A stretch of 64,000 nucleotides of DNA, from positions 59,819-123,818 of the forward strand of contig NZ_RJKL01000002.1 in the NCBI RefSeq assembly GCF_003751945.1, given 5' to 3'. This stretch comes from Couchioplanes caeruleus. Lineage in GTDB: Bacteria; Actinomycetota; Actinomycetes; Mycobacteriales; Micromonosporaceae. The notes beneath the pieces are model-generated. The model saw only the letters and a list, made by a program, of their open reading frames with translations, was not told the DNA's origin and searched no databases. Shown piece by piece: positions 2,654 to 37,878 of this stretch (positions are counted from its first letter, which is position 1; every line of letters begins with the position of its first letter). Made by a program: the position numbers and the translations under genes.

Positions 2654-3096
2654 CGGGCCACCTCGCCATCCGGGATGTGCATCCGGTTGCGCCGGCAGCG
2701 GTGTTCCTCAATCAACCCGGACAGCCACGCCGCGACCAGCAGGTACGCCGCAGCAACGCCGATCACGGCGGCCAGCAGCCACACCACGCCTTCGCCGAGC
2801 CGAGCGAGTATTGCGACCATCCCAGCGGCGGCCATCGCATATCCGGCCAGGCCGGCCGCCACTACCGGCAGCGAGACAGCAGTCCGCGGCGCAGCCGCGG
2901 GCCATCGCCCGTGCAGGCCGAAGAAGTCCCAGGCCGCCGAGCAGCTCGAACACCGGAAACCGTCGACCTGTTCCTGCAGGACGGTGTCGTCGATCGGGCA
3001 GTACGGACCCATCGTGTAGAGCCGGGCGTCCGGCGGGACCGGGAAGATCGCACGCCAGTCCGGGGACTCGATCGCGGTAGCGCGGACGGCGGTCAT
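2650..3096 (-). CDS. Zinc-motif protein with two C-terminal membrane helices
   Basis: 148 aa, start ATG 3096 overlapping the GGDEF gene's stop. The N-terminal half has a CPIDD...CSSCSAAWDF zinc-ribbon-like motif. Residues ~75-130 form two or three hydrophobic helices (VAAGLAGYAMAAAGMVAIL and VVWLLAAVIGVAAAYLLVA), followed by a basic Cys/Arg tail (HRCRRNRM). It is probably a membrane protein with a cytoplasmic metal-binding domain. Function unknown; it is co-translated with a diguanylate cyclase. Confidence 0.7.
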   Translation of the reverse strand: MTAVRATAIESPDWRAIFPVPPDARLYTMGPYCPIDDTVLQEQVDGFRCSSCSAAWDFFGLHGRWPAAAPRTAVSLPVVAAGLAGYAMAAAGMVAILARLGEGVVWLLAAVIGVAAAYLLVAAWLSGLIEEHRCRRNRMHIPDGEVAR

Positions 3097-3827
3097 CGCG
3101 CGACCACCACCCCAAGCTCCGACGGGACCCGGTGCGGATGCATGTCACGCAGCCGCTGCGGCGGCCGGTAGGCCTCTCCCCCGGCGGCCCGTCGCTCGAG
3201 CGGCCCGAACTCCACCGCGGTGCCCCCGCCGGAGGCCTTCGCCCGGTACATCGCCACGTCCGCCGACCGCATCAGCGTCATGGGGTCGTCGCCCGGCATC
3301 ACCTGTACCAGGCCGACGCTGGCCGTCACCTCCATGCGGATGCCGCTGTCGATGAGGAACGGCTGGCTCAGCACCGCGACCGCGTCGCGGGCCAGCATCA
3401 TGGAGATCGCACCCACCGGTGAGGCGGCCAGAACGGCGAACTCGTCGCCGCCCAGCCGACCCACCAGATCCCCCGGGTGCACCACCCTGCAGAGACGACG
3501 CGCAGTCTCCACGAGCACCTGGTCCCCGGCGTCGTGGCCGTACCTATCGTTGATCAACTTGAACTCGTCCAGGTCGAGCAGGATCAGCGCCCACGAGTCG
3601 CCCGAGACCATCCGGGCGGTCAAGTCAGCCTCGATACCGCGACGGTTCGCCAGTCCGGTCAGCGCGTCGTGTCTCGCCTGATGCTCGGCCCGGCCGAGCT
3701 GGCGCCGAGCCTCGTCGAGCTGGCAGCGGGTCGTGGCCAACCTGCGGCGCATCCGTCGCAGGATCAACGCGGCTGGTAGCGCTGACGCGCTTAGACCGCT
3801 CACCGCGGCCAGTATCTCGGCGATCAT
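3093..3827 (-). CDS. GGDEF-domain diguanylate cyclase
   Basis: 244 aa from ATG 3827, which overlaps the preceding stop (3824-3827); the frame is open further upstream, but that part lies inside the previous gene. One N-terminal hydrophobic helix (residues ~8-25) anchors it, and a short coiled coil leads to the GGDEF domain. It has DALTGLANRRG (55-64), LLDLDEFKLINDRYGHDAGD and an intact GRLGGDEF signature (126-130), so c-di-GMP synthesis is expected. The usual inhibitory I-site RxxD is HPGD here, so product inhibition may be weak. A cyclase translationally coupled to plasmid genes is unusual. A PilZ-domain protein is encoded at 13712-14710. Confidence 0.9.
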   Translation of the reverse strand: MIAEILAAVSGLSASALPAALILRRMRRRLATTRCQLDEARRQLGRAEHQARHDALTGLANRRGIEADLTARMVSGDSWALILLDLDEFKLINDRYGHDAGDQVLVETARRLCRVVHPGDLVGRLGGDEFAVLAASPVGAISMMLARDAVAVLSQPFLIDSGIRMEVTASVGLVQVMPGDDPMTLMRSADVAMYRAKASGGGTAVEFGPLERRAAGGEAYRPPQRLRDMHPHRVPSELGVVVAR

Positions 3828-4135
3828 GCGTTCACCGCCTTGGTCTGACGCGGCTGCGTTGACGCGAGCTGACCCACCTCCGCGCCGAGGCGCTCCTCGT
3901 TGGCCGACATCCGCCCGTGTGCACACAGAGACGGACGCCAGCCCTGGTTGATCAGGTCGGTGAGGAGATCAAGAAGTCGTTCCGCAAGAACGAGCTTGCG
4001 AGCCGCAGCCATGCGGTTTCGACGACTCCTGTCCTTCTTGCACTCAATGCATTCCGTGGCCGACTTGTAGAAGTCGCTGGCAAGACGATCACGGTCGCAG
4101 TTGCGACACGTGATGCTGATCGATTCGCGAGGCAC
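3824..4135 (-). CDS. Small Cys-rich protein, first gene of the minus-strand operon
   Basis: 103 aa, start GTG 4135 with a strong GGAGGAG ribosome site 5 nt upstream. The N-terminus carries CRNCDRDRLASDFY and CIECKKDRSRRNR: two CxxC pairs of a small zinc ribbon, as in HNH-like or phage zinc-finger proteins. The rest is helical. It heads a run of overlapping genes to 77. The promoter should lie in 4136-4230, between this gene and the hairpin at 4244-4292. Confidence 0.7.
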   Translation of the reverse strand: MPRESISITCRNCDRDRLASDFYKSATECIECKKDRSRRNRMAAARKLVLAERLLDLLTDLINQGWRPSLCAHGRMSANEERLGAEVGQLASTQPRQTKAVNA

Positions 4136-9884: not shown

Positions 9885-10988
9885 TCATCGGTGAGGGCCT
9901 TCGGGGGCGAGGGGATTGCGGTAGCTACCGCCCGCGACCTCGGGTATCTGCACGCTTTCCAAGCTGGCCACACCGGTCTGCGCGACGCCGATGAGGGCTT
10001 GAGTGGCGGAGTAGACGGTGGCCATGACCTTGGTGGCCTCGGCCCACATGTCGAGCATGCGAGCGACCTCGATGGCGGCAACGCCGTAGCCGACGACGGC
10101 GCCGACGCCGGTTTCCGCGGTGACGGTGCCGGCCGCGGCGGCGATACCGGCGATGATGGCCGCGTCGAGTAGTCCCTTGATGATGCCGGAGACGGCCTCG
10201 CCGGCGTTGTATGCGCCCTCGGCCGCCAGCTCGAACTGCTTGGCCACCACGCGCATGGGATGTGCCATCGCGTCCAGCTTCGCGGCGATGTCGGTGAAGT
10301 GCTGGTCGGCGGCCTCGGCCGCATGGCCCTGCCACTGCGTGCGGAGCGAGATCGCTCCGCCTTGTAGGTTGTAGCCGAGGTCGGTGGTGGCGTCCGCGGC
10401 GTTGCCGAGTGCTTTGCCGGCCTTGGCGAGGGCTTGCCAGTCGCCGAGGAAGAAGTCGGTCGCTTCGCCGAGGATGTCGTAGCCGAACACCCAGTCGATG
10501 CCTTTGAGCGCCCAGTGCGAGATGCTGATGTTGTCCAGGACGGCCAGAGGGTGACTCAGCTCGACGTCACCCACCGCGGCCAAGCGGCCGGAGGGATCGC
10601 GGGAGTCGGCGAACGAGGGACCACAGGGGTTGCCGGCCCAGGCCTGCTCCAGCGCCGTCAAGCCGGCGCGGTCGGGACGGTTGGGCAGGGTGGCGTCCAT
10701 GCGCGCCGCGGCGTTCGCATCGGTCTGGCGGTAATAGGCGGCGGAATCGGTCAGCCCGTCCTGGTCATATTCGAGCAACGTGCCGACTTTGTGAAGGTTC
10801 GCTGCCGCGGCGGCGAACGCGCGGGGCCCGTTCTCGCCCAAGAGTTTCATCAACCCGCCGCTGGACCACGTTCCGTCCGGCGGCGGGTACCGGTGCAGGT
10901 AACCGCCGATCGCGCGGGCGTCCCCGCTAGCCCGGTCGACCTGTTTCGCGTATCCGTCGAGACCCTCCGGGACCACGGTGAACGTCAT
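9885..10988 (-). CDS. WXG100/ESX-like putative type VII secretion substrate
   Basis: 367 aa. The N-terminal ~115 residues are helical (YAKQVDRASGDARAIGGYL). The central part has LRTQWQGHAAEAADQHFTDIAAKLDAM, with the W-x-G turn between helices typical of WXG100/ESX proteins. A small Ala/Gly-rich hydrophobic segment follows (AIIAGIAAAAGTVTAETGVGAVVGYG). No toxin domain is evident at the C-terminus. Export would need a chromosomal ESX system; none is in the window. It is likely co-expressed with 9570-9875 and perhaps with the membrane protein at 11029-11349. Confidence 0.75.
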   Translation of the reverse strand: MTFTVVPEGLDGYAKQVDRASGDARAIGGYLHRYPPPDGTWSSGGLMKLLGENGPRAFAAAAANLHKVGTLLEYDQDGLTDSAAYYRQTDANAAARMDATLPNRPDRAGLTALEQAWAGNPCGPSFADSRDPSGRLAAVGDVELSHPLAVLDNISISHWALKGIDWVFGYDILGEATDFFLGDWQALAKAGKALGNAADATTDLGYNLQGGAISLRTQWQGHAAEAADQHFTDIAAKLDAMAHPMRVVAKQFELAAEGAYNAGEAVSGIIKGLLDAAIIAGIAAAAGTVTAETGVGAVVGYGVAAIEVARMLDMWAEATKVMATVYSATQALIGVAQTGVASLESVQIPEVAGGSYRNPLAPEGPHR

Positions 10989-11028
10989 GAACTGCCTCTC
11001 CCCCGTTTGACTTGCACAGCCGTTCCGT

Positions 11029-11349
11029 TCAGGACGCCAGATTCGCCACCACGACGATTTCCAGGACGCCGAGAACGGTGCAGCCCCACGCCCACCAGAG
11101 GCGCTGTCGCCCCGCGAAGACGTCCCTGGTCAGCTGGACCATGACTCCCCACACGGCACCGGCGATCAGGAGCGCGCATCCGGGTGCGGCGGCCCACGAC
11201 AGGCGACCGCCCACCATCATGAAGATCAGGGCGAACGCGAAGATGCCACCCAGGATGTTCAGTCCGGCGGCGTAGAACCGGATGCGCCCGACGGCATCAC
11301 TCTCCGACTCCGCCGCGAATTGGTGCCGAAGCTCCTCACGAAACGACAT
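11029..11349 (-). CDS. Three-helix membrane protein
   Basis: 106 aa with three hydrophobic helices (ILGGIFAFALIFMMVGG, GCALLIAGAVWGVMVQL, LWWAWGCTVLGVLEIVVVA) after a charged N-terminus (MSFREELRHQFAAESESDAVGR). It lies 40 bp upstream of the WXG-like gene on the same strand and is probably in the same operon. Function unknown. Confidence 0.7.
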   Translation of the reverse strand: MSFREELRHQFAAESESDAVGRIRFYAAGLNILGGIFAFALIFMMVGGRLSWAAAPGCALLIAGAVWGVMVQLTRDVFAGRQRLWWAWGCTVLGVLEIVVVANLAS

Positions 11350-11625
11350 CGCACGAGGGTACAGGGCATCCTCTGCCTCGCCGACCCACGATCATCGGCG
11401 GGCGTCAGCCACACCAGCGCCCCCGAATCCGGGTCGCGACGCCACCTGTGCAACGTCGTGATCATCGAACCCGCCCGCCGCCGCGCCGGGCCCGCCGCTC
11501 TGGTCCATCCGCCGACACCAAGCCAGAGCCAGGATTCGGCCACTACGCCCGACAAGCCCTCCTCGGGACATGATCACAATCCGGCTGGAGCACTAGAACG
11601 ATTCCCTCGTTTGCCCAGCTCACCG
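11350..11625. other. Gene-free leader to the replication origin
   Basis: No frame on either strand has consistent actinobacterial codon bias or a recognisable domain. It separates the WXG-like operon (minus) from the iteron region. Confidence 0.4.
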
Positions 11626-11965
11626 CTGGCATAGTTGCCCGTCATACGGCCCGCTCCGAGGGTGGGAACTCTGCCGGATTTGCCGCACTCCTCCCGCTCG
11701 AGGAGGTACAGGTCCGCACCGCAGGGGACGAGCGCGACGAGGCCGAGGTGGTTGGCATTATGGCCCGTCGACTTCCCGCCGCCGGCGGCTGTGCGACGAC
11801 GGCCGATCTGTGGATGACGGAGACGTTGTGCTGGCATTGTGGCCCGTCACATGAGCGATACTCGCGTCGGCTGGCATTACCGCCCGTACGCTGAACCGGA
11901 CATCGCGGCAGGAGCTACGCAAGGCCCACGGGTGTTGCTGGTTGTGCTGGCATTATGGCCCGTCC

Positions 11966-11974
11966 CTGTCCACA
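11966..11974 (+). promoter_or_regulatory. DnaA-box match within oriV
   Basis: CTGTCCACA, one mismatch to the actinobacterial DnaA box TTGTCCACA, located between iterons 5 and 6. Confidence 0.55.
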
Positions 11975-12057
11975 GGTTCGCCGGGTTGTGCTGGCATTGT
12001 GGCCCGTCACGGCCGGTCCCAGACGGCCTGAAAGCCGGGCTACCCGCCTCGCGCCCC

Positions 12058-12066
12058 TGTGGACAA
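12058..12066 (-). promoter_or_regulatory. DnaA box within oriV
   Basis: TGTGGACAA, the exact complement of TTGTCCACA, 12 bp upstream of iteron 7. Confidence 0.65.
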
Positions 12067-12339
12067 CGCTGATCCTGCTGGCATTACGGCCCGTCAAAAG
12101 CCGGGCTTGGCTGGCATTACGGCCCGTACCGCCTGGCATTATGGCCCGTCACGCTGCCACGTTTACGCAGCTCAAAGGCCTGTTTCGGCGGCCCCTTGTA
12201 GTTGATCCTCGTAGCCTGCTTGTAGTTCTTCGGCCGCCCGCGCCGGCGCCGAGCATGCCGCCGCCCCGCCCGGCCGGCGCGACACGCGCACCCCGAACAA
12301 AGTTTGATCGACCCTCGCCGCTACGGCAGCCTGTGCGGC

Positions 12340-13410
12340 ATGGCCCGGCCGACCTTCACGCAGATGGAGCTGCTCGAGCAGATCGCCGAGATGGACGCTC
12401 GGACGGATCCGCCGATCGGCTTCCCGCCGCTGGTGACCGCCATGTGCCTGCTGCCCGGCGTGAAGCCGACCCTTCCGAAGGTCCGGCCCGTCGAGGAGCA
12501 CCGGGTGCTCAGCCGCAGTCACAACGGGTGGACCGCCACCTGGACCGCCGGCATCAACCCGAAGGACGGCAGCAACGTCGGCCTGCCGTACGGACCGAAG
12601 GGCCGTCTGCTGCTGGCGTTCCTCGGCGGCTACGCGGTCCGGCACAAGACCCCGATGATCGAGCTGGGTCCGAGCCAGAGCGGGTTCATGAAGGAACTCG
12701 GCCTGGCCGCCTCCGGCGGCCGCACCGGATCCAAGACCCTCGTCGGTGAGCAGGTTCGGCGCCTGGTGCGCGCCCAGCTCGTCGTCGAGCGCGACTTCGA
12801 CGACGACCCGCGCTACCTCACCGACGAGGGCGCCGGCATGCGCATCGCCCGCTCGTGGAAGGTGTGGTGGGACCGCAGCGGAGAGAACCCAACCCACCCG
12901 GTCGAAGGGTCGTATATCGAGCTGTCCAAGGACTTCTACGACGAGATCATCGATCACTCGTTCCCGCTGAATCTCGATGCCCTGCGGATATTCGGCGACA
13001 GCGCGCTGGCCATGGACCTGTACGCCTGGCTCACCTACCGACTGCGGCAGCTCACCAAGCCGGTCACGCTCACGTGGGAACAACTCACCGCGCAGTTCGG
13101 CAAGAACGGCCTGCCCGATGTCGGTGCCCCGAACCGCGCCCGCAGCCGCGCGGTGGCCGAGAACAAGCGCAACATCTTGGCCCAGCTCCCGACCGTGCTG
13201 GCCGTCTATCACCAGGCGAAGGTCGAGGAGACGAAGTTCGGCCTGGAGCTGCGGCCAAGCCCGCCGCACGTGCCTGAGCGCGGAATGCACGGGTTGCGGC
13301 GCGCTCAGGCCGCGGCCAGCCTGCCCGCACGCCGGACCGCCGCCGCAGCAGCGGACGAGGCATCTCCGGTGCCAAGCCAGCCAGACCGTTGCCAGCGGAG
13401 CACCCGGTAA
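12340..13410 (+). CDS. repA: RepA-type plasmid replication initiator
   Basis: 356 aa from ATG 12340; an in-frame TTG at 12304 is the alternative and neither start has a strong Shine-Dalgarno. The middle (NVGLPYGPKGRLLLAFLGGYAVRHKTPMIELG, SQSGFMKELGL) and C-terminal half (YIELSKDFYDEIIDHSFPLNLDALRIF, ALAMDLYAWLTYRL, LTWEQLTAQFG) match plasmid-encoded RepA_C-family initiators, which carry winged-helix domains that bind iterons. It lies directly downstream of nine iterons. It should recruit the host replisome to oriV and may repress itself by binding its own upstream iterons. Confidence 0.9.
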   Translation: MARPTFTQMELLEQIAEMDARTDPPIGFPPLVTAMCLLPGVKPTLPKVRPVEEHRVLSRSHNGWTATWTAGINPKDGSNVGLPYGPKGRLLLAFLGGYAVRHKTPMIELGPSQSGFMKELGLAASGGRTGSKTLVGEQVRRLVRAQLVVERDFDDDPRYLTDEGAGMRIARSWKVWWDRSGENPTHPVEGSYIELSKDFYDEIIDHSFPLNLDALRIFGDSALAMDLYAWLTYRLRQLTKPVTLTWEQLTAQFGKNGLPDVGAPNRARSRAVAENKRNILAQLPTVLAVYHQAKVEETKFGLELRPSPPHVPERGMHGLRRAQAAASLPARRTAAAAADEASPVPSQPDRCQRSTR

Positions 13411-13499
13411 CCAGATGGCCAACGGTCGCCCGTTCAGTGCGCTGGTGTTGGTTCTAGGCTCGCGGGGTAGGCGTTGGCAGGGCCTGTGCTCGCCGCTGG

Positions 13500-13711
13500 T
13501 TGTCGCTGGCGCCGCAGCCGTCGGCCGCGAGGCGGGGTTCGGATGAGCGGATACCGCGGTTGTGTCCGGTCTGCGGTGGGCCGTTGCCGGCCTCGGCGCG
13601 GTTGAGCTGGGTGTTCTGTTCGTCTGCCTGCCGGGCACGGCACTGGCGTACGACAGGCCATCGCCATGCCCGCATCCGGGCCCAGAAGTTCGACCGGGTG
13701 GCCGGGGCGGG
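13500..13711 (+). CDS. Small zinc-ribbon protein, 3' end unclear
   Basis: The frame opening at 13500 reads RLCPVCGGPLPASARLSWVFCSSACRARHWR, a typical actinobacterial CxxC...CxxxC zinc ribbon followed by a basic helix. The frame stays open to 13994, but beyond ~13710 it runs antisense to the PilZ gene and looks non-coding. The original stop is probably lost or the C-terminus replaced. The start is not certain either. Confidence 0.4.
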
Positions 13712-14710
13712 TCAGTCCAGCCAAGCGAGTCGGGCCACCCCGCCGGCGACCGTGACCACCCTCGCCCGAAGTAGCGCGTCGTTGATCTTCAGGACCACGT
13801 GTTCCTTGCGGGCTGGGTACTGCTGGGCGCCGGACACCACGCAGGCTATCCGGGTCGGCTTGGCGGTGACTGGCTGGGCGCCGACGCTGGACCACAGAAC
13901 CGCGTCGGTGCTGGTGCCGTCCCAGGTGCGGGCGGGGCGGGTGAATACCAGGTGCTTGGCCAGCTCCGACTCCTGCATGCCGATGTCGGTGTAGGCGAAG
14001 TGGGCCTGTCGGTCCTGCACGGTGATGCACCGGGCGATTGCCAGCAGCGGCTGATAGGAGCCGTCTATCCGCACCGCCACGTCGGCTCCCTCCGGTGGTG
14101 CGTGGTCGAGCACAGCGGCGAAGCCGCCGACCGACACGTCGAGGGTGTGACCGACGCTGTCCACCGAGGTGTCGGGCCACCACACCGTCACCGGAAGGTT
14201 CAGTTCCCGTCGCGGGTACTGGCGCCGGTCGGTGTCATCACGGGTAGGGCGGCCCAGTCGGACCCGTCCGTCGTCGACCATTCGCACCGCCGCCCACCAT
14301 CGGCTTACCGGCGGCGTGTGGATCAGCTGTACTACATCAAACGGACTGACCCCAAGATCGTCTTTAACTTCGACGTCCAGGGTGCCGGTTGTCGGATCCG
14401 CCGCGATCAGGACGGCGGAAACGCCGTTGACAGTGACCGTCGAACCGACCCGCTCTGCCCAACTGTCCACCCGATCAGCGTAGAACCGAGCAGGATCTTC
14501 TCGCGGACGAAGCAACGCTACGGCGACCCTGTCGTCGGCGGCCAACACGGGCCGACGTCCGCACGCGGCCGACTCCGGCCGCCGCGGCTTCGCCTGGCGC
14601 GAAGGCGCATACGGCTGGTGGGGCCGCTCCGGCACGTTCCAAACCGTGCTCCACCTGCGGAACCAGGGTTGAGAGACGTCCACTCCCGTCTGCCGGCCTC
14701 GCTCCTGCAT
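13712..14710 (-). CDS. PilZ-domain protein, probable c-di-GMP receptor
   Basis: 332 aa. Residues ~55-155 resemble the YcgR-type N-terminal domain. Residues 162-167 are RRQYPR and 191-196 are DVSVGG, which together form the canonical c-di-GMP-binding signature RxxxR...(D/N)xSxxG of PilZ domains. The rest of the PilZ barrel follows (VDGSYQPLLAIARCITVQDRQAHFAYTDIG). A C-terminal ~60-residue extension is unassigned. With the GGDEF enzyme at 3093-3827, the window encodes both a synthase and a receptor. Binding is predicted from motif identity. Confidence 0.82.
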   Translation of the reverse strand: MQERGRQTGVDVSQPWFRRWSTVWNVPERPHQPYAPSRQAKPRRPESAACGRRPVLAADDRVAVALLRPREDPARFYADRVDSWAERVGSTVTVNGVSAVLIAADPTTGTLDVEVKDDLGVSPFDVVQLIHTPPVSRWWAAVRMVDDGRVRLGRPTRDDTDRRQYPRRELNLPVTVWWPDTSVDSVGHTLDVSVGGFAAVLDHAPPEGADVAVRIDGSYQPLLAIARCITVQDRQAHFAYTDIGMQESELAKHLVFTRPARTWDGTSTDAVLWSSVGAQPVTAKPTRIACVVSGAQQYPARKEHVVLKINDALLRARVVTVAGGVARLAWLD

Positions 14711-14831
14711 CTGCAGCGCTGTCGGCGCCCCCTCCTGACCTCAGTACCGGGAGCGCAGAAGGTACGCGACATGCCCTCGACCAGATCCCCGCTCCACGAC
14801 CCGAACCCAGCGTGCCGGCCACCGACCAAGG

Positions 14832-15706
14832 ATGACCTCCATGCTGCACCGTCGCGGATGCTACGACCGCCTCGCCGACATCCGCCGCCGTGACCCCGTC
14901 GCCGACTACCACGCCATCTACCAGGCCACCGCGCTGTACGAGTTCCCCTTCGACACCCGGATGGGGCTGCTGCTGGCGTTCTGGCGCACCTTCGCCGTGC
15001 CCTCCATCGCCGAGGTCCTGGCAGCAACCGGAGAAACCATCCACCGCACCGACCGCCGCGCCGACGACACCGGCATCCTCATGTACACCCTGATCAAGTA
15101 CGGGCTCGACCATCCGTACGGGCGCACCGCCACGCGCCGGCTCAACCAGATCCACCGTCGGTTCACCATCAGCAACGACGACTACCGGTACGTGCTGGGC
15201 ACCTTCCTCTTCGCGCCCGCCCGATGGATCGACCAGCACGGCTGGCGGCCGCTGGCTGTCACGAACGCACGGCCATGCTGACCTTCTACACCACGCTGGG
15301 CCGGCGCATGAACATCACCGACATCCCGACGACGTGGGACGCCTACGAGACCTTCTACGACACCTACGAGGCGCAGCGCTTCGCCTACACCCCGGCCGCG
15401 GCGCAACTGATGGCGGCGACCGAGGGCCTGCTCGGTGCTTCCTCCCGTGCCCTGACACTCCTGTCCGGCGGCATCATCCGCACAATGCTGGACCCGCCGC
15501 TACGCCACGCCACCGGAGTCACCCCGCCACCCCGCTGGGCCAAGGCCCTCCTGACCGCCGCACTGGGCGGTCGGGCCGCATGGCTGCGACACGGAGCGCG
15601 GCCCCGCACCCGCGGCTGGCTCGACGAGGGAATCACCGGCAAGACCTACCCCGACGGCTACGACCTCGCCACGCTGGGACCCAGCGGACCGCAGCAACCC
15701 GGCTGA
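14832..15706 (+). pseudogene. MpaB/DUF2236-like oxygenase, frameshifted
   Basis: Two frames together encode one protein of this heme-oxygenase-like family. The first part (14832 to about 15255) reads DPVADYHAIYQATALYEFPFDTRMGLLL, TFAVPSIAEVLAATGE and NQIHRRFTISNDDYRYVLGTF. The match then continues in another frame as HERTAMLTFYTTLGRRMNI and FRYT-like QRFAYTPAAAQLM, to 15706. The overlap at 15224-15281 locates a single indel near 15255. Both halves have normal GC3, so the break is recent or an assembly error. If the break is an error, the product is ~290 aa. Confidence 0.78.
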
Positions 15707-16189
15707 CGCCAGGCGCCTGTGGTGAGCATCTGAATCGGGATCGTCTGGGCTGTACGTGGTCTCGACGACCGCGCAGTACCTTGACCAGGCACAGAACGCG
15801 CTGCGTATCGCCTTGGACGCCGTCGAGGTGGCCCGCGCCCGGCCCTGGTTCGAGACCGCGGACCGAGCCGCCTCTGCACCCGGGCGCCCCTCGAGCCACC
15901 GGACAGGACCAGATGCTCTACGCCGCCGCACTGATCGTCTGGTGGTGGTGTGATGCTCGGCCTCGTCGAGTTGGAGGAAGGCGGCCTGCACGCGCAGCAG
16001 ATGACGGCAGGGACACTCCTCGTAGCGAGCCATGACCGCCTCGAACCGGCCGGCTCGGGAGAGGGCCATCGTCTTGTCGTCCTGGTCCATGCCACATTCC
16101 AGGGCGCGCTGGCTCCATAGAACAGCCACCGCTGATCAGCGAGACACTGCCGAGCGGATCGCGACGCCACCGCGACTTGAGACACATAG
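15707..16189. other. Mosaic of gene scraps, no intact gene
   Basis: A plus-strand frame near 15756-15870 (TTAQYLDQAQNALRIALDAVEVARARPWFE) and a minus-strand frame near 15965-16100 (MDQDDKTMALSRAGRFEAVMARYEECPCRHLL) look coding, but each runs into noise. They are probably recombination leftovers. No function assigned. Confidence 0.4.
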
Positions 16190-16228
16190 GCCGGGGGTGA
16201 CGACTCGTTATGAGTTGTCACCCCCGGC
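16190..16228. terminator. Strong bidirectional terminator hairpin
   Basis: Arms CCGGGGGTGACGACTC and GAGTTGTCACCCCCGG pair over 16 positions with one G-T, around a 5-nt loop. It sits 34 bp after the stop of the minus-strand gene at 16262. Confidence 0.75.
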
Positions 16229-16261
16229 GGGTTGTGTGCGGCAGGCCGTAACGGTGGCGGA

Positions 16262-16474
16262 CTACGACTCGTCGAGGTCGCTCACTGCGTCGGCGACAGC
16301 GGCGCTCGCGACGGTGCTGACCACTGCTGCCAGCAGGGCTGTGGCCGGACCACCCACGGCGAGGCCGATGCCCACCGCCGCCTTCCTAGCCAGCAGGCCG
16401 GCACCGCTACCCGCGGCTGCCACAGCGATGCGCTTGGCGTACTGACCGGCCAGTTCCTCATGCTTCTTGTTCAT
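16262..16474 (-). CDS. Small Ala/Gly-rich membrane peptide
   Basis: 70 aa from ATG 16474, chosen because AGGAGG lies 6 nt upstream; a TTG at 16480 abuts the ribosome site too closely. A charged N-terminus (MNKKHEELAGQYAKRIA) precedes two glycine-zipper-like hydrophobic helices (GSGAGLLARKAAVGIGLAVGG, PATALLAAVVSTVASAAVA) and an acidic end. The layout recalls small pore-forming or bacteriocin-like peptides, but no family is recognised. It ends just before the hairpin at 16190. Confidence 0.65.
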   Translation of the reverse strand: MNKKHEELAGQYAKRIAVAAAGSGAGLLARKAAVGIGLAVGGPATALLAAVVSTVASAAVADAVSDLDES

Positions 16475-16513
16475 CGTCAACCTCCTACTGGATCACGTGG
16501 TCGGGATTCGGCG

Positions 16514-17290
16514 TCAGCGTTTGGGCCACGGGATCTGGATCTTCGGCATCCGGAACGGGCACGGCTTCCCGGTCAGGGGCGTCACCGTGACGTCCCAGAT
16601 CTGACACGACTCCTTCAGATAGCGCAGAACCGTGGTGACGAGTGAATCGGAATCACGTGAGTGAATGATTTTCATCGAAGTGGCTCGGCTGGTGATCTCC
16701 ACGCCGAGATCCTGCTCCCAGTACGCCCGGCGATCATGGGTGCCCCCGATAACCCACTTTCCGTCAACCCCCCAGCGGCGCGGCGCGGTCACACCGATGA
16801 CGTCGCCGCACTTGTTGTGCAGGACCACCACCACCGACCCGTGATAGCCGCGGGGCTTCGCCACCGACCAAATGCGGGTCGGCTCGCCGGAAACCTTGCC
16901 GACGTTGCGGGAAACGCGGATCCAGCTCTCCATGCGAAGCCCGCCGGACAGCGCGTCTCGGCGATAGTCAGTCAAGGCAGGCAAAGACCGGTTAGCCGCA
17001 TTCGGGTCCGGGCACGGATCGCTCGCCGCCGGATGCGCGATCGCCGTGAACCAGTCGAGCCTTGCCGGTGGCGGCACGACGGGCCGGGGCAGAATCCTCC
17101 AGTGCGGCGGCACGACACCGGGACGGCGCAGCAGGCTGCCGGGCTGCGGGCTGGGTGCCGCAACGGCGGGGGTCGATGGAACAAGGGCGGCGGTCAGCGC
17201 CGTGCTGATAGCCACCAGCAACAGGAGCAGGACACGTGGAGGAGACGCGGTGCGGCGCGTCCCACCCGTCGGGTTGGGAGAGGTGTTCAT
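16514..17290 (-). CDS. Secreted protein of unknown function
   Basis: 258 aa from ATG 17290, with GGAAGTGGA just upstream. A basic N-region and hydrophobic core (VLLLLLVAISTALTAALVP) end at AVAA-AP, a typical signal-peptidase site near residue 45. The mature part is Pro-rich at first, then has paired Cys (DPCPDP, HNKCGD, ESCQIW, GKPCPF) that could form disulfides outside the cell. It precedes the small peptide gene by 33 bp on the same strand. No catalytic motif seen. Confidence 0.7.
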   Translation of the reverse strand: MNTSPNPTGGTRRTASPPRVLLLLLVAISTALTAALVPSTPAVAAPSPQPGSLLRRPGVVPPHWRILPRPVVPPPARLDWFTAIAHPAASDPCPDPNAANRSLPALTDYRRDALSGGLRMESWIRVSRNVGKVSGEPTRIWSVAKPRGYHGSVVVVLHNKCGDVIGVTAPRRWGVDGKWVIGGTHDRRAYWEQDLGVEITSRATSMKIIHSRDSDSLVTTVLRYLKESCQIWDVTVTPLTGKPCPFRMPKIQIPWPKR

Positions 17291-29988: not shown

Positions 29989-31014
29989 TCAGTCGCGCAG
30001 GAGCTCGTTCGCCAGCTCCCGGCGTTGCTCGGCGGAGAGCTCGGATCGCAGGGTCTGAGCGATCGCCGTTGGGGTCTTTCCCAGGCGCTGAATCGCAGCT
30101 TGAACTCGAGATACACGTGGCCGTGGTGCTGGCGGGGGAGTTGCTTCGGCGTCCATGTTGATCAGGCCGCGGCGGCGGCGCCAAGCCTGCAAGTTGGCCA
30201 GTTGCTCTTCCCGGCTGTCCAGGTGCCACTTGCCCTTCCTGACCTCCTCCAGCGACAGGCGAGCCTCGCCAGAGGTGCGCATCTGCTCCTGAACCTCGGG
30301 TTGCAGAAGGAGGACGTTCTTGCGTTGTGAAACCCAGCCGGGGGTGCGCTCCAGGAGTTCGGCGACGGCGTTGCCGGACTGAAGCTCGGCGAGGAGCTGC
30401 TGCACGACCAACGCCTCCTCGACGACGTCGAGGGACTCGTCCGCGAGGTTCTCGTCGGCCATCGCGCGAATGAAGGAGACGCGGGTCGCCGCGAGGCTGT
30501 CCCGAACCCGGATCTCAATGGTCTCCATGCCCTCGAGGAGTAGCGCTGCCCGGCGGCGGCCGCCGCCGACTTGCACCCACTCGAAGGTGTGGGGGACCGT
30601 CTCCTCGTCCTCCGGGAAGAGGGCGAGGTACGACGACCTGGTGACGCACGCGGAAGGCTGCATCTGGCCAAGCTCGCGGAGCGACGCCCGCAGGCCCGCA
30701 AGCTTGTCCGGGCGGGTGTCGATGTCGCGGGTGTTGCGAGGGTTGGGCGCCACCTTAGCGATGGGAGCCGAGAACGAGCCCGCCGGCGGGACGGGGGCCA
30801 CAGAGTCGGCCGCGACCGTCGTCTGGGTAGGGACCGTCGGGCGGGCGCCGGTTTTTACGGCAGCCGCTAGGGGAGTGACCGTCACCGGCTCCGGACGGAT
30901 GTGGGCCGGCGGCGGCACGCTCCGTGGTTGCCGGCGAGCTGCCGCAGCCGCCTTGCGGTCACGGAGGCCCTTCGCCGGCTGAACCGGCGCCACCTCGTCA
31001 CGCTGCTCGGGCAT
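29989..31014 (-). CDS. parB: ParB-family partition protein
   Basis: 341 aa. After a ~90-residue disordered Pro/Ala N-terminus come the ParB N-domain features: VAPNPRNTRDI, SLRELGQMQPSACVTR and GGGRRRAALLLEGMETIEIRV (the GxxRxxA nucleotide-binding box). The HTH domain follows (MADENLADESLDVVEEALVVQQLL, TPGWVSQRKNVLLLQPEVQEQM). It would load on parS palindromes and be moved by ParA. Its start lies inside the parA 3' end (17-bp overlap), so the two are co-translated. Confidence 0.88.
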   Translation of the reverse strand: MPEQRDEVAPVQPAKGLRDRKAAAAARRQPRSVPPPAHIRPEPVTVTPLAAAVKTGARPTVPTQTTVAADSVAPVPPAGSFSAPIAKVAPNPRNTRDIDTRPDKLAGLRASLRELGQMQPSACVTRSSYLALFPEDEETVPHTFEWVQVGGGRRRAALLLEGMETIEIRVRDSLAATRVSFIRAMADENLADESLDVVEEALVVQQLLAELQSGNAVAELLERTPGWVSQRKNVLLLQPEVQEQMRTSGEARLSLEEVRKGKWHLDSREEQLANLQAWRRRRGLINMDAEATPPPAPRPRVSRVQAAIQRLGKTPTAIAQTLRSELSAEQRRELANELLRD

Positions 31015-31858
31015 AACCCACCACCGTTTCCCCCAACTTGTGTAGCTCGCTTACGAGAGAACTCGCCCGCTTGGGCACTGGGTCGGTCGCGGTCACGGCC
31101 ATGCGCCGGGTCCGGCCCCCCAGCCACTTGTACTCACTGATCTCCGGTCCAATGGGGGCCTGAGCGCGTCCAGCCGCGTGCTCCAGCCGTGTGATGTAGC
31201 GCTCCGGCGGGCTCAGCGGCACCATGTTGGGCACGATGAGCAGGGGATAGGACTTCAGCTCCTCGAGCATGTCCTCCGTGGCGGCCATGTCGCGCTCGCG
31301 GAGCACCGCAGGCGTCAGCACGAGGTTGCCCGCCGCGACCGCCGCGAATGTGGAGGGCGTCCCGCCCGGGTGGGTGTCGATCACCACAGGGCACTGCAGT
31401 TCCTGCCCCCACTGCGCCGTCCAGCGCTCGATGGTCTTCGTCATGCGCTCGGCCGAGGGCTGGTTGTGGCCGAACTCCTTGGCGCAGGGAACGAGGTCGG
31501 GTCGCCACGGTCCACCGGCCAGCGGCCGTGGCACACGGCCGGTCTCAAGCGCGTCCAGAAGTGGCCGGTTGACGCGTTGTTCCTCGCGGTAGCCCCACGC
31601 TCCGCTGGCGTTGCCCTTGTCCCAGTCCAGGTCGAGGAGGACGGCTCCCAGCAGGTAGGCCATTTCGTACGCGAGGAACGTCTTGCCGACCCCTCCCTTG
31701 TACGCCGCTACCACTACGGTGAAGCCCGCCAGGTCGCTCGGGGTTAGGCCGTACTGCGCCAACCATGCACCCTTGCCGCGCTCCGGCACTGGGGCACTGT
31801 GCCGGCCGCCTGGCACCTCATCGGGCAGGTCTGACTCGAGGTATTCATCATTAGTCAC
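30998..31858 (-). CDS. parA: ParA-family partition ATPase
   Basis: 286 aa. The deviant Walker A motif KGGVGKT is at residues 54-60 (VVVAAYKGGVGKTFLAYEMA), followed by LLDLDWDKGNAS (Walker A'/D region) and CPVVIDTHPGG (Walker B). It would bind the nucleoid as an ATP dimer and segregate the plasmid with ParB. The promoter should lie between 31858 and the third parS palindrome at 31995. Confidence 0.9.
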   Translation of the reverse strand: MTNDEYLESDLPDEVPGGRHSAPVPERGKGAWLAQYGLTPSDLAGFTVVVAAYKGGVGKTFLAYEMAYLLGAVLLDLDWDKGNASGAWGYREEQRVNRPLLDALETGRVPRPLAGGPWRPDLVPCAKEFGHNQPSAERMTKTIERWTAQWGQELQCPVVIDTHPGGTPSTFAAVAAGNLVLTPAVLRERDMAATEDMLEELKSYPLLIVPNMVPLSPPERYITRLEHAAGRAQAPIGPEISEYKWLGGRTRRMAVTATDPVPKRASSLVSELHKLGETVVGYARAA

Positions 31859-31994: not shown

Positions 31995-32010
31995 TTTTAC
32001 GGCCGTAAAA
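31995..32010. promoter_or_regulatory. parS: parS-like palindrome 3
   Basis: TTTTACGGCCGTAAAA, perfect 16-bp palindrome, 137 bp upstream of parA. It shares the TTTACGGCCGTAAA core with the two copies on the other side of parAB. Confidence 0.75.
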
Positions 32011-33558: not shown

Positions 33559-33748
33559 CGCCGCGCCCATGATTCGTGACGCTACGCCCGAGCAGGCGCT
33601 GGTGCTGGCCGCCTCCGCTGTCGGCCCGCGAGGTGCCGGGGATGTATCGGTCGAGCCGGACGTGCGCGCCGAGGATCTTCCAGGAGCTCCGGGGATGACC
33701 ACCTTGGCCATGGTCGGGTTCTTCGGCTGAGGGGAGTCCCCCGTCCCG

Positions 33749-33811
33749 TGTCCAACGTGTTGTACGTGTCCGCCGTGTCCAACACGTAGTACATGTCCTA
33801 CTTGTTGTAGG
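33749..33811. repeat. Seven tandem 9-bp repeats, candidate RHH operator or centromere
   Basis: Units in register are TGTCCAACG, TGTTGTACG, TGTCCGCCG, TGTCCAACA, CGTAGTACA, TGTCCTACT and TGTTGTAGG, each starting exactly 9 bp after the last. Short tandem arrays of this kind are the known binding mode of ribbon-helix-helix proteins such as plasmid Omega (heptads). The array ends 40 bp before the start of a small RHH-like gene. Operator function is inferred; the periodicity is direct. Confidence 0.75.
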
Positions 33812-33851
33812 CTGCCGCGATCATGATTGTTCTCGAAGCGCGGGGGATTCG

Positions 33852-34145
33852 ATGAGCGCACCGGTAGCAGACGCGGCGTCGTCGGAGGCGGTGTTCCCCG
33901 CCATGAAGCGCGACACCCTGTATCACGGGGTCGACCTCGTGCGGCGGTTCGCGGCCGCCGTCGAGGAGGAGTGGCTGCGCCGCGGTGCGCAGATCAAGAA
34001 GCACGAGGTGATCGACGCGTTGTTGCTACTGGCGATCAGTAACCGTGACCAGCTGCCGGCGTACCTGGAGCAGTTGCGTCGCGAACGCCGCGAGGCGGTG
34101 CAGGCGGCGACGCTGGACACGGTCGAGGAAGGGGATGCCCGGTGA
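33852..34145 (+). CDS. Small ribbon-helix-helix-like protein
   Basis: 97 aa from ATG 33852 (GGGGG 5-10 nt upstream). The core TLYHGVDLVRRFAAAVEEEWLRRGAQIKKHEVIDALLLLAISNRDQL has the strand, helix, turn, helix pattern of RHH DNA-binding proteins, with a charged tail. It follows a 9-bp repeat array and overlaps the next gene by GTGA. A role in copy control, partition or autoregulation is likely. The fold call rests on pattern, not a profile match. Confidence 0.65.
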   Translation: MSAPVADAASSEAVFPAMKRDTLYHGVDLVRRFAAAVEEEWLRRGAQIKKHEVIDALLLLAISNRDQLPAYLEQLRRERREAVQAATLDTVEEGDAR

Positions 34146-35515
34146 GCTGGGCGGATCTGACGACGTTTGCGTACGACTACGCCGTGCCGCTGCTGGCCGG
34201 GACCGGTGTGCTGGGCCTGGTGCTGCTGCTGGTCATGATCGTGCGGGTCAAGCGGAGCGGGCGGCCGCTGCGGCCGATCGCCCTGTCGGCCTCGATGAAC
34301 CTGGCGCTGATGCTGAACGCCGAGGGCATGTGGTACATCGCCATCGACACCCTGCGCCTGCCGGCACTGTTCGCGGTGCTGGTCTTCGCGGTGTTCGAGA
34401 TCTGCTTCCTCACGGCGACCAGCCTCGCCGCGGAGCAGTACCGCAACACTACCGTGTACGGGCCCGACGGTAAGGTGATCACCCCGGGCCATCCGGGCTC
34501 GATGCTCTATGTGGCGGCGTTGATCGCCCTGATGTCCGGTGTGGTCGTGGCCAGCGGCGCGCCCACCACGACCGAGAAGATTCTGCGCCTGGCCATTCCC
34601 GTCATGATCTTTTTGATGTGGTGGGCGGCGCTGACCGCCGCCGGCCAGCGCGCGCGCCGCAGCCGCTTCGCGCACAGCCCGATGCGGATCGCCGAGCGGC
34701 GGGGCTGGTTCATCCCGGACGAGGATCCCGACCTGGCCAAGATGATCGCTGACCGGCGGCTGACGAAGATGGCGATGCTGGCGCACCGGCTGCACAACGG
34801 CGAGCTGGACGAGAAGCGCAAGGTGAAGGTCAAGACCGAGCTGGCCAGACTCAGCCTCACCGCCACCGACGACGACCTCGCCGAGGTGCAACGCCGGGTC
34901 AACCGGGCCGGGCAGGCCGAGCAGCTTACCCAGCCCGGAGTCCTGGCGGCTTTGATGCCGACACCGACCGTCGCCGCCGCCGTAACCCCAAGCGCGGTCG
35001 CGCCGGCGGCGCCGGCTCTGGCGCAGCCGCAGCCCACACCGCAGGAGGAACCGGCGGCGGTCAGCGGTCACCGACCTCGCGCCGCGGACGATGCCGCTCG
35101 CGGGGAGAAGTCGACCGCCTCTGAGAAGCGCGCTGCGGAGCCGGCCGTCCCCAGCACGGCGAAGTACTACGCGCAGTGGCTGACTGTCTGGCTGACGATG
35201 ACCGCGGAACCAACGGCCACCAATCAGATCCTGCGCCAGCGCACGGGCATCGCCCTGCGCACGCTCAGCAAGATCCGCACCGCAGGCAAGGACGGGCTGC
35301 TCACCGCCCAGCGCCTGCAGGAGTTGCGGATGCAGGAGGGGGCGGCCGCGTCGGCCGACACCGGCACCCGAGCGGTGCGCGACAACGCCGACGAGCCCGC
35401 GCCGGCCGCGGTGCCGTCGCAGCCTTCCCGGTCGAGAGAAAGCGGCACCGCGCCGGAGCCGGCCGCCGCGGCCGCCGGCGGCCACAGCACCCGGGAACCC
35501 GCGATGGCACGCTGA
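34142..35515 (+). CDS. Four-helix membrane protein with C-terminal HTH-like domain
   Basis: 457 aa from GTG 34142, co-translated with the RHH gene. Four membrane helices lie in the first ~175 residues (YAVPLLAGTGVLGLVLLLVMIV; LPALFAVLVFAVFEICFLTA; SMLYVAALIALMSGVVVAS; AIPVMIFLMWWAALTAAG). A basic helical region and a Pro/Ala linker follow. The segment at ~residues 340-400 reads YYAQWLTVWLTMTAEPTATNQILRQRTGIALRTLSKIRTAG, an HTH-like fold. The layout parallels 984-2408. DUF2637-like plasmid membrane protein is the closest description. It ends at a strong terminator before the decamer array. Confidence 0.72.
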   Translation: MSWADLTTFAYDYAVPLLAGTGVLGLVLLLVMIVRVKRSGRPLRPIALSASMNLALMLNAEGMWYIAIDTLRLPALFAVLVFAVFEICFLTATSLAAEQYRNTTVYGPDGKVITPGHPGSMLYVAALIALMSGVVVASGAPTTTEKILRLAIPVMIFLMWWAALTAAGQRARRSRFAHSPMRIAERRGWFIPDEDPDLAKMIADRRLTKMAMLAHRLHNGELDEKRKVKVKTELARLSLTATDDDLAEVQRRVNRAGQAEQLTQPGVLAALMPTPTVAAAVTPSAVAPAAPALAQPQPTPQEEPAAVSGHRPRAADDAARGEKSTASEKRAAEPAVPSTAKYYAQWLTVWLTMTAEPTATNQILRQRTGIALRTLSKIRTAGKDGLLTAQRLQELRMQEGAAASADTGTRAVRDNADEPAPAAVPSQPSRSRESGTAPEPAAAAAGGHSTREPAMAR

Positions 35516-35531
35516 CCCGTTGCAGGGTGGA

Positions 35532-35579
35532 GGGACGGCGCCCGCCGGGAGGTTGCACTCCCGGCCGGGGCCGTCCCTT
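35532..35579 (+). terminator. Strong Rho-independent-like terminator
   Basis: Outer arms AGGGACGGC / GCCGTCCCT and inner arms GCCGGGAG / CTCCCGGC form one long stem with a small internal bulge, followed by TCCTC. It ends the RHH/membrane-HTH operon. Confidence 0.75.
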
Positions 35580-35636
35580 CCTCATGTGAGGACTGCGGCC
35601 GGGCGCCTGCCCGGCGCGAAGTGGGCGTCGGCCTCC

Positions 35637-36198
35637 GGGTGGCAACCGGGGGCGGTCGGGGTGGCAAGTGACTCGACCGCTGGGTAGCAACCGCCCCCGC
35701 TGGCGGGTGGCAAGTCCGCCTCTGCAAAGGGGGTAGCAACCTGCGCCCGATCAAGCGGCAACTGGTCCTAGAGAAGGCGGCAATCCTGCCGTGCCAGGGG
35801 TAGAAACACCTTGCTCTCTGAGCGTAGAAACACCGCCGTTGGCGGGGAGGCAAGTGGCCTCGGCGGTGGACGACGGTGGGTGGAAAACGGCAGCTCAAGG
35901 GCCTAGCAACACGTGCCGGTCGAGGGGTAGAAACACCGCCGATTGCCAGCGGCGCATATGGGCGGCGGTGGGGGTGGCAACCGCGCGCGGACCGGGCAGC
36001 CGGTTGCTAGCGCCGACGGGTAGAAACACCCGCGCGTGAGGGTGGCAAGTCGCCGGCTGCAGGGGTAGCAAATAGACCTGCCTGGGGGTAGCAAGTTGCC
36101 GGCTGCAGGGGTAGCAACTCGCCCCGAGCTGGGGTAGCAAGTCGCCGGCCCGGCAGGTAGCAACCCGCTCCTGGCAACCGCGGCGCCGGGGTAGCAAC
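35637..36198 (+). repeat. Periodic decamer array (GGGTAGCAAC type)
   Basis: About 20 copies of GGGT(A/G)GCAA(C/G), or the variant GGGTAGAAAC usually followed by ACC, all on the plus strand. Clear copies start at 35637, 35659, 35682, 35705, 35731, 35798, 35822, 35845, 35901, 35925, 35972, 36018, 36040, 36063, 36086, 36109, 36132, 36155 and 36189; weaker ones are near 35753, 35775 and 35878. Most steps are 22-24 bp or twice that, with unrelated sequence between. The phase is not a multiple of three, so it is not a protein repeat. It resembles an iteron, centromere or TraB-recognition (clt) array, but its motif differs from the oriV iterons and parS sites. Confidence 0.85.
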
Positions 36199-36687
36199 CC
36201 CGCACCGATCGTCGGCGCGTATCGACGCGGACGCATCCGAATACCCGCGCTGAGGGCGCGGCGAACCTTTTGCTCGGACACCGCGCCGTGAGGTTTCGCG
36301 GCCGTCGACGACCGCTGCCCCCGAGAGAATCCGCCGAGGCCCTGGCCGCCCGACTTCACGTGCCGCAGCGGCCCGCCTGCACCCCGTCGGTCATGGCGAA
36401 GATCGATCCAGCCGCGTGCGGTTGCCACCCGCCCTCGGTGTTTCTGTCTCAGTGGCTGTCCTACGTTGCAGAGACGGGTCGCAGCGGTCGTTCGTTGGAC
36501 CGGTTGACCCCAGGGTCTCGGGTATGGCTCAGTGGCTGTTGCCGCGGGATGGCTTCAAAGACTTGGCCGCCCGAGACTCCGTGACGACTCGACCGCTGAT
36601 TGGGATGCGCGGCTTGATCGCTTTGTAGGACAGTGCCGGCGAGGTCGTCTGCGGGCTGATCACGACGAGCGGCTGGCGGAGGTGGCG
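36199..36687. other. Left flank of IS110 element, candidate bridge-RNA region
   Basis: No convincing gene. IS110-group elements encode their bridge RNA upstream of the transposase, so the ~150-250 nt before 36688 are the place to look. CTCAGTGGCTGT occurs twice in direct orientation (36448-36459 and 36528-36539), possibly marking the element end or a target/donor core. The exact left end cannot be set by eye. Confidence 0.4.
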
Positions 36688-37878
36688 ATGCCGAAGATCT
36701 GGGCCGGTGTGGACATCGGCAAGGAACATCATCACTGCGTGGTGATCGACTGCGAGGGCAAGCGGTTGTTGTCGCGCCGGGTCTTCAACGACGAGAAGGA
36801 GCTGCTGCGGCTGGTCAGCGACGTGCGGACCCTCTCGCAGGACGTGGTGTGGGCTGTGGACGTCAACCGGGGCGGCGCCACGTTGCTGATCGGTTTGTTG
36901 CTGGCCGCCCAGCAGCCGATGGTCTACCTGACCGGCTTGGCGGTGCATCGTGCTTCGGCGTCCTACCGTGGGCAGGGCAAGACCGACGCCAAGGACGCGT
37001 ATGTCATCGCTGACCAGGCCCGGATGCGCCGCGACCTCGGTGTCATCCGCCCGGGCGACGAGGTGACGGTGGACCTGCGGATCCTCATCACCCGCCGCAC
37101 GGATCTGGTGTGTGACCGCACCCGGCAGATCAACCGGCTCCGCGCCCAGCTGCTGGAGATCTTCCCCGCCCTGGAGCGGGCGCTGACGCTGACCAACCAG
37201 GGACCGGTCATCCTGCTCAGCGGCTATCAAACACCCGGGGCGATCCGCCGCATGGGGGTGCGGCGCCTGCAGGCATGGCTGGCCGGCCGCCACGTGCGGG
37301 CAGCCGCCGACCTCGCCCGCGTCGCGGTCGAGGCCGCCCAGGCCCAGCACACCGCGCTGCCCGGCAAGGAGTTGGCGGCCACGATCGTGGCCCGCCTCGC
37401 CGCCGGTGTGCTGGCGTTGAACGCCGAGATTGCTCAGGTCGACGCGCTCATCGAGGCCCGGTTCGCGCAGCATCCGAGTGCCGAGGTGATCGAAAGCCTG
37501 CCCGGGATGGGACCTCGCCTCGGAGCGGAGCTGCTCGCCGCCACCGGCGGCAACCTGACAGCCTTCGGCAGCGCGGACCGCCTGGCCACCTTCGCCGGCC
37601 TGGCGCCGGTGCCACGTGACTCCGGCCGAGTCAACGGCAACATGCGCCGCCCCACCCGTTTCCACCGCGGCCTACTGCGCGCCTTCTACCTATCCGCGCT
37701 GGCCAGCCTGAGAACCTGCACCGCCTCACGCAGCTACTACGACCGCAAACGCCAAGAAGGCCGAAACCACCAACAGGCCCTGCTCTGCCTGACCCGACGC
37801 CGAGCCAACGTGCTGTGGGCCATGGTGCCTGACGGGTCGCTCTACCGAACCCAAGAGGCTGTCAGCGCCCCGGTGTGA
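36688..37878 (+). CDS. IS110-family transposase
   Basis: 396 aa from ATG 36688 (MPKIWAGVDIGKEHHHCVVID). The N-terminal DEDD RuvC-like domain is visible: GVDIGKEHH, WAVDVNRGGA, GKTDAKDAYVIADQAR. A coiled middle and the C-terminal Tnp domain follow (VIESLPGMGPRLGAELLAATGG, FAGLAPVPRDSGRVNGNMRR, RGLLRAFYLSALAS). The frame is open 52 codons further upstream but without family sequence. Full length, so the element may be active. Confidence 0.9.
   Translation: MPKIWAGVDIGKEHHHCVVIDCEGKRLLSRRVFNDEKELLRLVSDVRTLSQDVVWAVDVNRGGATLLIGLLLAAQQPMVYLTGLAVHRASASYRGQGKTDAKDAYVIADQARMRRDLGVIRPGDEVTVDLRILITRRTDLVCDRTRQINRLRAQLLEIFPALERALTLTNQGPVILLSGYQTPGAIRRMGVRRLQAWLAGRHVRAAADLARVAVEAAQAQHTALPGKELAATIVARLAAGVLALNAEIAQVDALIEARFAQHPSAEVIESLPGMGPRLGAELLAATGGNLTAFGSADRLATFAGLAPVPRDSGRVNGNMRRPTRFHRGLLRAFYLSALASLRTCTASRSYYDRKRQEGRNHQQALLCLTRRRANVLWAMVPDGSLYRTQEAVSAPV

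Follow-up and report, generated by a model that had tools for sequence, protein, structure and literature searches.

SpdA2 of pIJ101 binds a site within its own gene, and its loss affects plasmid stability, not transfer (PMC4170104). The clt sites of plasmid conjugation are described as direct-repeat arrays that lie partly within a tra gene (PMC3583192), and centromere binding is known for ribbon-helix-helix (RHH) proteins that sit on tandem repeats at promoters, as in omega/parS of pSM19035 (PMC9499535) and in pCXC100 with its direct repeats (PMC5016525). Here we compare with them a locus in a 64,000-nucleotide stretch of Couchioplanes caeruleus DNA (hereafter the window; bases 59819-123818 of contig C2), where a first-pass annotation had picked out seven 9-bp tandem units, a small RHH-like gene, a gene for a membrane protein with a helix-turn-helix (HTH)-like C-terminus (MP) that overlaps it at GTGA, and a run of decamers. 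All were found in the places it had assigned. We tentatively favor reading this cassette as a membrane docking module carried by the plasmid, in which MP would dock the decamer array and the RHH-like protein would autoregulate the operon, most likely in the service of transfer.

Using GGGTRGMAAC with at most two mismatches as the definition, 20 decamer sites lie in a single orientation on the forward strand at 35637..36198, in agreement with the roughly 20 first reported, and one further match falls at 36476. Their spacings are mainly 22-26 bp, with others of 33-34, 46-47, and 67 bp. The best period of the 20 sites is 11.5 bp (power 16.3), a strength reached by none of 1000 random placements, and the decamers sit mostly on every second step of this 11.5-bp lattice. 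Exact GTRGMAA occurs 18 times forward and never in reverse within 620 bp, compared to a mean of 0.30 and a maximum of 3 in 2000 shuffles; the array is far above chance. Between MP and the array, a 21-bp inverted repeat without a T-run (35531..35578, forward strand) stands where a strong terminator had been called, a call that we drop; a terminator scan listed no forward-strand site within 33600-36300.

MP (34142..35515, forward strand) has a GTG start, overlaps the RHH stop by 4 bp, and encodes 457 amino acids. Its structure model (mean pLDDT only 62.9) begins with five helices, read as membrane helices from sequence alone rather than with a transmembrane predictor; the membrane/HTH architecture of the first-pass annotation is retained, and its count of four membrane helices is not. 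Next come a helical part taken to be cytoplasmic (residues 196-271), a linker that is disordered (about 272-338), and, toward the C-terminus, four confidently modeled helices with the HTH-like domain (340-405). The window MP matched no Pfam or NCBIfam family at E <= 1, and no ATPase domain; the HTH_23 family scored above cut-off in L056, which aligns to MP only there, and below cut-off in L068. Foldseek with the MP model gave no match at E <= 0.001, VIA-align returned only helical-bundle rows under its trust level, and PDB sequence searches returned nothing convincing. In a plasmid collection, MP had two weak matches and the decamer array and RHH-like protein had none, and IMG/VR held no relative. 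A protein search with MP (E <= 0.001, with the best 7998 candidates scored) found at least 88 proteins including MP itself, and those with a named source come chiefly from Actinoplanes and close genera. Elsewhere in the window, a second membrane-looking protein is encoded on the reverse strand at 984-2408; close to the C-terminus it has a weak HTH match that stays below cut-off.

The arrangement recurs on two other plasmid-like contigs: L010, a 77,713-bp contig of Couchioplanes caeruleus subsp. azureus (82% identity in MP and 81% in the RHH-like protein), and L057, a 190,445-bp contig (59% and 68%). In both, a decamer array with new spacers comes after MP, some of the L057 sites reading GTCGCAA. 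The RHH-like gene, MP, and the decamer array are therefore together at all 3 plasmid loci read, with the spacers diverged and the word and phase kept. Outer sites of the window array are mainly GTRGCAA and inner sites mainly GTAGAAAC, a layout that by eye looks similar in L057 and less clear in L010. The most conserved 40-mer between the window and L057 (35879..35918, forward strand; 33/40 identical) lies near the array midpoint and contains, by eye, a short imperfect inverted repeat (CGGCA...TGCCG) around GCCTAGCAACAC; the conserved 40-mer between L010 and L057 is 32/40 identical. We also searched 300 genomes of the family for three TTGCNAC sites with gaps of 13-18. This pattern was present in 20 genomes, with clearly divergent spacers by eye only in G000, G030, and G024, the latter two being those from which L010 and L057 come; matches in the remaining genomes looked like tandem repeats with similar spacers. 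An IS110-family transposase is encoded just beyond the window array (36697-37875), and similarity to L010 ends near 36238.

A chromosomal locus, L175, helps to allot the two arrays to the two proteins. Its MP gene, with HTH (P0008, listed under Actinoplanes sp. OR16), is followed by a decamer-like cluster, in that the 18-kb locus has seven GGTNGHAA sites and six of them (five forward, one reverse) are crowded into 250 bp just after MP; a generic repeat scan did not pick this cluster up. At L175, no RHH-like gene was recognized by a motif test and no 9-bp array was seen. Because decamer-like sites occur there without a recognized RHH gene, the decamers probably go with MP, and the 9-bp units with the RHH-like protein (judging from four loci). 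The first-pass annotation had considered all elements functionally linked, which stands for the gene pair and the decamers at the 3 plasmid loci, less so for the two arrays, which probably belong to different proteins. It had also expected both arrays to accompany homologous gene pairs: decamers do so in L010 and L057, and the 9-bp array is clear in L010 and weak in L057. RHH-like and MP genes are also paired on Actinoplanes chromosomes, at 10 of the 29 loci tested, in addition to L010 and L057 (L026 and L176 in this list are one locus), and the 10 loci checked (7 + 3) have no decamer array. These pairs formally touch the expectation, though the four of their MPs that were aligned (P0010, P0024, P0040, and P0059) fail to align to the HTH block; three of the chromosomal RHH-like partners score only below cut-off with an RHH model.

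The seven 9-bp units (GTGTCCAAC GTGTTGTAC GTGTCCGCC GTGTCCAAC ACGTAGTAC ATGTCCTAC TTGTTGTAG; 33748..33810, forward strand), a proposed RHH operator, precede the RHH-like gene (33852..34145, forward strand; 97 amino acids, from the list of open reading frames with translations). Self-identity of the array is 0.59, 0.60, and 0.68 at lags 9, 18, and 27, and 0.07-0.36 at the remaining lags up to 30. Repeats before the L010 RHH gene are clear (24/45 lag-9 matches, the 99.9th percentile of its locus), and those of L057 are within background (22/45, the 99th percentile there being 25), only the unit words still resembling the 9-bp units of the window. An unbroken run of short repeats ahead of the operon, as expected of type Ib partition loci, is thus present in the window, similar in L010, and weak in L057. 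The repeats of pCXC100 are likewise 9 bp. No ParA-type NTPase is encoded in the RHH operon, in which the downstream gene is MP; the ParA-like gene of C2 is paired with a ParB-like gene instead. A search with the RHH-like protein returned 7 proteins including itself, from Couchioplanes, Krasilnikovia, and other sources. It matched no Pfam or NCBIfam family, and four homologues likewise had no Pfam match. Its structure model has helices at residues 25-43, 50-63, and 65-91, with low confidence over residues 1-24, the would-be strand, and Foldseek with this model gave no match.

Distant relatives of MP carry arrays of other words within the DNA coding for the linker between the membrane part and the HTH, in several reading frames. 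In L068, whose protein is about 27% identical to MP, TGACGCA occurs 14 times in the linker DNA, in both frames that avoid a stop; 1000 synonymous-codon shuffles average 1.41 and reach 5 at most. Corresponding counts (with the mean and maximum of synonymous shuffles) are 18 for CGGACA in L184, in all three frames (8.37, 14); 11 for CGGGCA in L183 (2.55, 8); 10 for CGGACA in L118 (3.13, 7); 9 for GGACCAG in L124 (3.44, 8); and a borderline 8 in L181 (2.67, 8). When any k-mer of the same length was allowed, only L068 (14, maximum 7), L183 (15, maximum 13), and L184 (23, maximum 20) exceeded all 200 shuffles. We set aside the linker repeats of L117, L121, and L122 (frame-locked) and of L128 and L134 (largely frame-locked) as protein-level repeats.

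Phasing was scanned at 10.9-12.3 bp for words that are not frame-locked, in loci of 2.1-4.2 kb and controls of 2 kb. The null comprised 386 control strands (99th percentile 4.2, maximum 6.3), leaving out L138 and L140, which hold arrays, and a stretch of L080 with CRISPR-like repeats. Scores above the null maximum were obtained for the window (7.6), L057 (7.1), L068 (10.8), L118 (8.5), L124 (7.6), L184 (14.2), and L181 (6.4). Pattern-defined sites, compared with 1000 random placements, had best periods of 11.9 bp in L010 (1 placement as strong), 11.4 bp in L057 (4), 11.2 bp in L068 (0), 11.9 bp in L184 (0), and 12.0 bp in L118 (0). More tentatively still, MP may belong to a family of HTH proteins that are anchored in the membrane and encoded on actinobacterial mobile elements. 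Each member would have a docking array of its own, with short words spaced on a lattice of about 11.2-12 bp, placed just downstream of the gene or across frames in the linker DNA; the word and the HTH would change together, and protein and array would move as a pair that serves conjugative docking or tethering.

The genes around these arrays bear on what docking might serve. Among the ten array-bearing loci considered (the window, L010, L057, L175, L068, L118, L124, L181, L183, and L184), five have transfer genes nearby by database match. About 3 kb beyond the L057 array, a VirB4-like AAA_10 ATPase (1.4e-24) is encoded, and a type IV secretion system (T4SS)-type gene group follows that array. 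L175 has the order MP, array, NikA-like gene (2.6e-7), relaxase, the relaxase being under the family cut-off yet matching the C2 relaxase by BLAST at 3e-27. TrwC and TraG are near L183, and FtsK-type genes, with matches below cut-off, are near L118 and L124. Large Walker A proteins near L068 and L184 are FtsK-like by inspection only and are not called by Pfam, and no transfer gene was recognized among the neighbors of L181, which were looked over by eye only. In the window plasmid no relaxase gene is adjacent to the array, whereas one is near in L190 and one adjoins the array in L175. The 24-kb contig of L190 (G104:C2) carries one gene set in two copies about 12.7 kb from each other, which may reflect a dimeric plasmid or an assembly duplication.

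These observations suggest the following mechanism. The RHH-like protein would bind the upstream 9-bp tandem array and autoregulate the operon. MP would sit in the membrane, its C-terminal HTH binding the polar downstream array on the 11.5-bp lattice around the conserved core, and with many copies of MP gathered on a single array, this point of the plasmid would be kept at the membrane. To judge from the sequence evidence, binding of the decamer array by MP is quite probable and docking at the membrane by MP is fairly likely; a membrane tie for plasmid DNA, as the first-pass annotation had it, is the natural reading of MP. The most likely purpose would be presenting the plasmid to membrane-bound DNA-transfer machinery, and the main alternative stable inheritance or spreading, perhaps inseparable from transfer in a mycelium. 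Owing to gene context we favor transfer docking over stability, a close second. Of the three roles first suggested (segregation, replication control, or transfer), the family context speaks for transfer no less than for segregation.

Several results weigh against this picture or parts of it. By lag-9 matches alone, the 9-bp array is modest (32/54, compared to 27-31 in 20 whole-window shuffles); the best lag-9 count of the window is 38, at another place, and when the local 500 bp were shuffled 500 times the highest count was 32 as well. A reversed control of the genome search pattern matches as well (once in G000, twice in G030, and up to 4 times elsewhere), so single matches mean little and the array carries the weight. 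The linker words were picked after inspection, and with any k-mer allowed L118, L124, and L181 tie the shuffle maximum. In the phasing scan, L010 (5.6) and L120 (5.7) are under the null maximum, and a minority of the superfamily shows phased arrays, namely 7 of 47 different loci (two of the 47 being HTH-only matches). No significant period was found in L124 (233/1000 placements as strong), in the L175 cluster (263/1000), or among the 10 exact GTRGMAA sites of L057 (360/1000), L183 has no period near 11-12, and the period of 12 in L118 equally fits repeated tetrapeptides. No transfer gene was recognized in the 15 kb of L010. On C2, the relaxase gene (C2:6858-8387) is far from the decamer array (C2:95455-96016), and no GTNGHAA site lies upstream of the mobC-like gene, one reverse match falling within that gene. 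Finally, relatives without a detected array are near FtsK (L176 and L060), relaxase (L192 and L062), or RepSA genes (L066 and L070), which argues that the context goes with the protein family rather than with the array.

The replicon itself constrains the choice between purposes. The genome consists of 2 contigs, 8.4 Mb altogether, of which C1 has 8.30 Mb and C2 123,818 bp. We infer that C2 is a plasmid from RepA (window 12304-13410, a PF04796 match), a ParA/ParB-like gene pair (window 29989-31858), the MobA/VirD2-type relaxase, and a TraG-type coupling protein. As originally noted, the locus is separate from both parAB/parS and RepA. The ParB-like partner matches TIGR00180 at 33.2 bits, under the family cut-off. 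A perfect 16-bp palindrome, TTTTACGGCCGTAAAA (window 31995-32010), adjoins parA and is perhaps parS; its counterparts are TTTACGGCCGTAAA in L010 and two copies of TTTACCGCGGTAAA upstream of parA in L057. C2 further encodes GGDEF and PilZ domain proteins (window 3096-3926 and 13715-14710, both reverse strand), parts for c-di-GMP synthesis and sensing. Outside the window, it has a CRISPR-like array (L080, 9950-10425) of 7 repeats (about GTTGCGATCCTCGCCCGGCCTGGTGGCCGGGCGCAGC) at intervals of 70-74 bp; after it come large open reading frames (10856-16534) that resemble type I cas genes by inspection only.

A possible though less probable explanation is that the cassette ensures segregational stability, MP tethering the plasmid through a centromere-like array and the RHH-like protein with its 9-bp array acting as regulator or second centromere binder. 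The centromere-binding RHH proteins and the stability role of SpdA2 cited above are consistent with this, as is the parAB-like pair about 1-2 kb upstream of the RHH gene at all 3 plasmid loci. That same pair, with the palindrome by parA, means that partition seems already served; since this separate pair has a palindrome of its own, primary partition is less likely as a function of the cassette, which moreover encodes no NTPase, and several array-bearing relatives are near transfer genes.

Rather unlikely is that a relaxase or an FtsK/TraB-type protein binds the array as an oriT-like or clt-like transfer site, with MP a mere accessory neighbor. The gene order of L175, the T4SS-type gene group after the L057 array, and the repeat structure of clt would fit such a site, but MP is the constant neighbor of the array while the transfer enzyme varies. 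Profile searches with PF01580 (FtsK) gave 20 matches, all on C1 and none on C2, divergent translocases missed by Pfam still being possible, and with no FtsK-type gene found there we rejected a clt/TraB reading for C2. An oriT for the C2 relaxase is not supported either, given the distant relaxase gene and the lack of GTNGHAA sites upstream of the mobC-like gene. It is very improbable that the array consists of replication-control or incompatibility iterons titrating a Rep protein, a role we rejected because RepA is more than 20 kb away, and because arrays follow MP, not Rep, at the loci read, even though polar direct repeats about 22-24 bp apart are iteron-like.

If MP does bind the array, the membrane docking module would be a dedicated, NTPase-free cassette fixing a chosen DNA site to the membrane in actinobacterial plasmids and integrative elements. 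A docking site could then be encoded inside the gene of the docking protein itself, and a frame-independent phased array in a linker would serve as a sequence signature for finding such systems. They would also offer handles on DNA loading for transfer or on the upkeep of large plasmids in mycelial bacteria. A literature search, with subscription journals mostly outside it, found no described system matching such a membrane-anchored HTH protein with a docking array.

Compared by description, each of the closest systems shares some features with this one. SpdA2/sps of pIJ101-type Streptomyces plasmids combines, as proposed here, a plasmid DNA-binding protein with a site that lies within or next to the gene of that protein, and this is conserved among plasmids. 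However, sps consists of one to three copies of a short palindrome, whereas here a long phased array accompanies a membrane-anchored protein (PMC4170104). SpdB2 of pSVH1 is, as proposed for MP, a DNA-binding integral membrane protein of an actinobacterial plasmid, but its binding is described as non-specific, whereas MP has an HTH-like domain and a dedicated array (PMC4170104). In clt/TraB (FtsK-like) conjugation, a direct-repeat cis site, partly inside a gene, is bound by a membrane protein, much as proposed here (PMC3583192); unlike in that system, no ATPase domain was matched in MP and no FtsK-type gene was found on C2. The omega/parS system of pSM19035 and ParB of pCXC100 share with this locus an RHH protein and contiguous short tandem repeats at the promoter (PMC9499535, PMC5016525), but the operon partner of the RHH-like protein here is a membrane HTH protein, not ParA.

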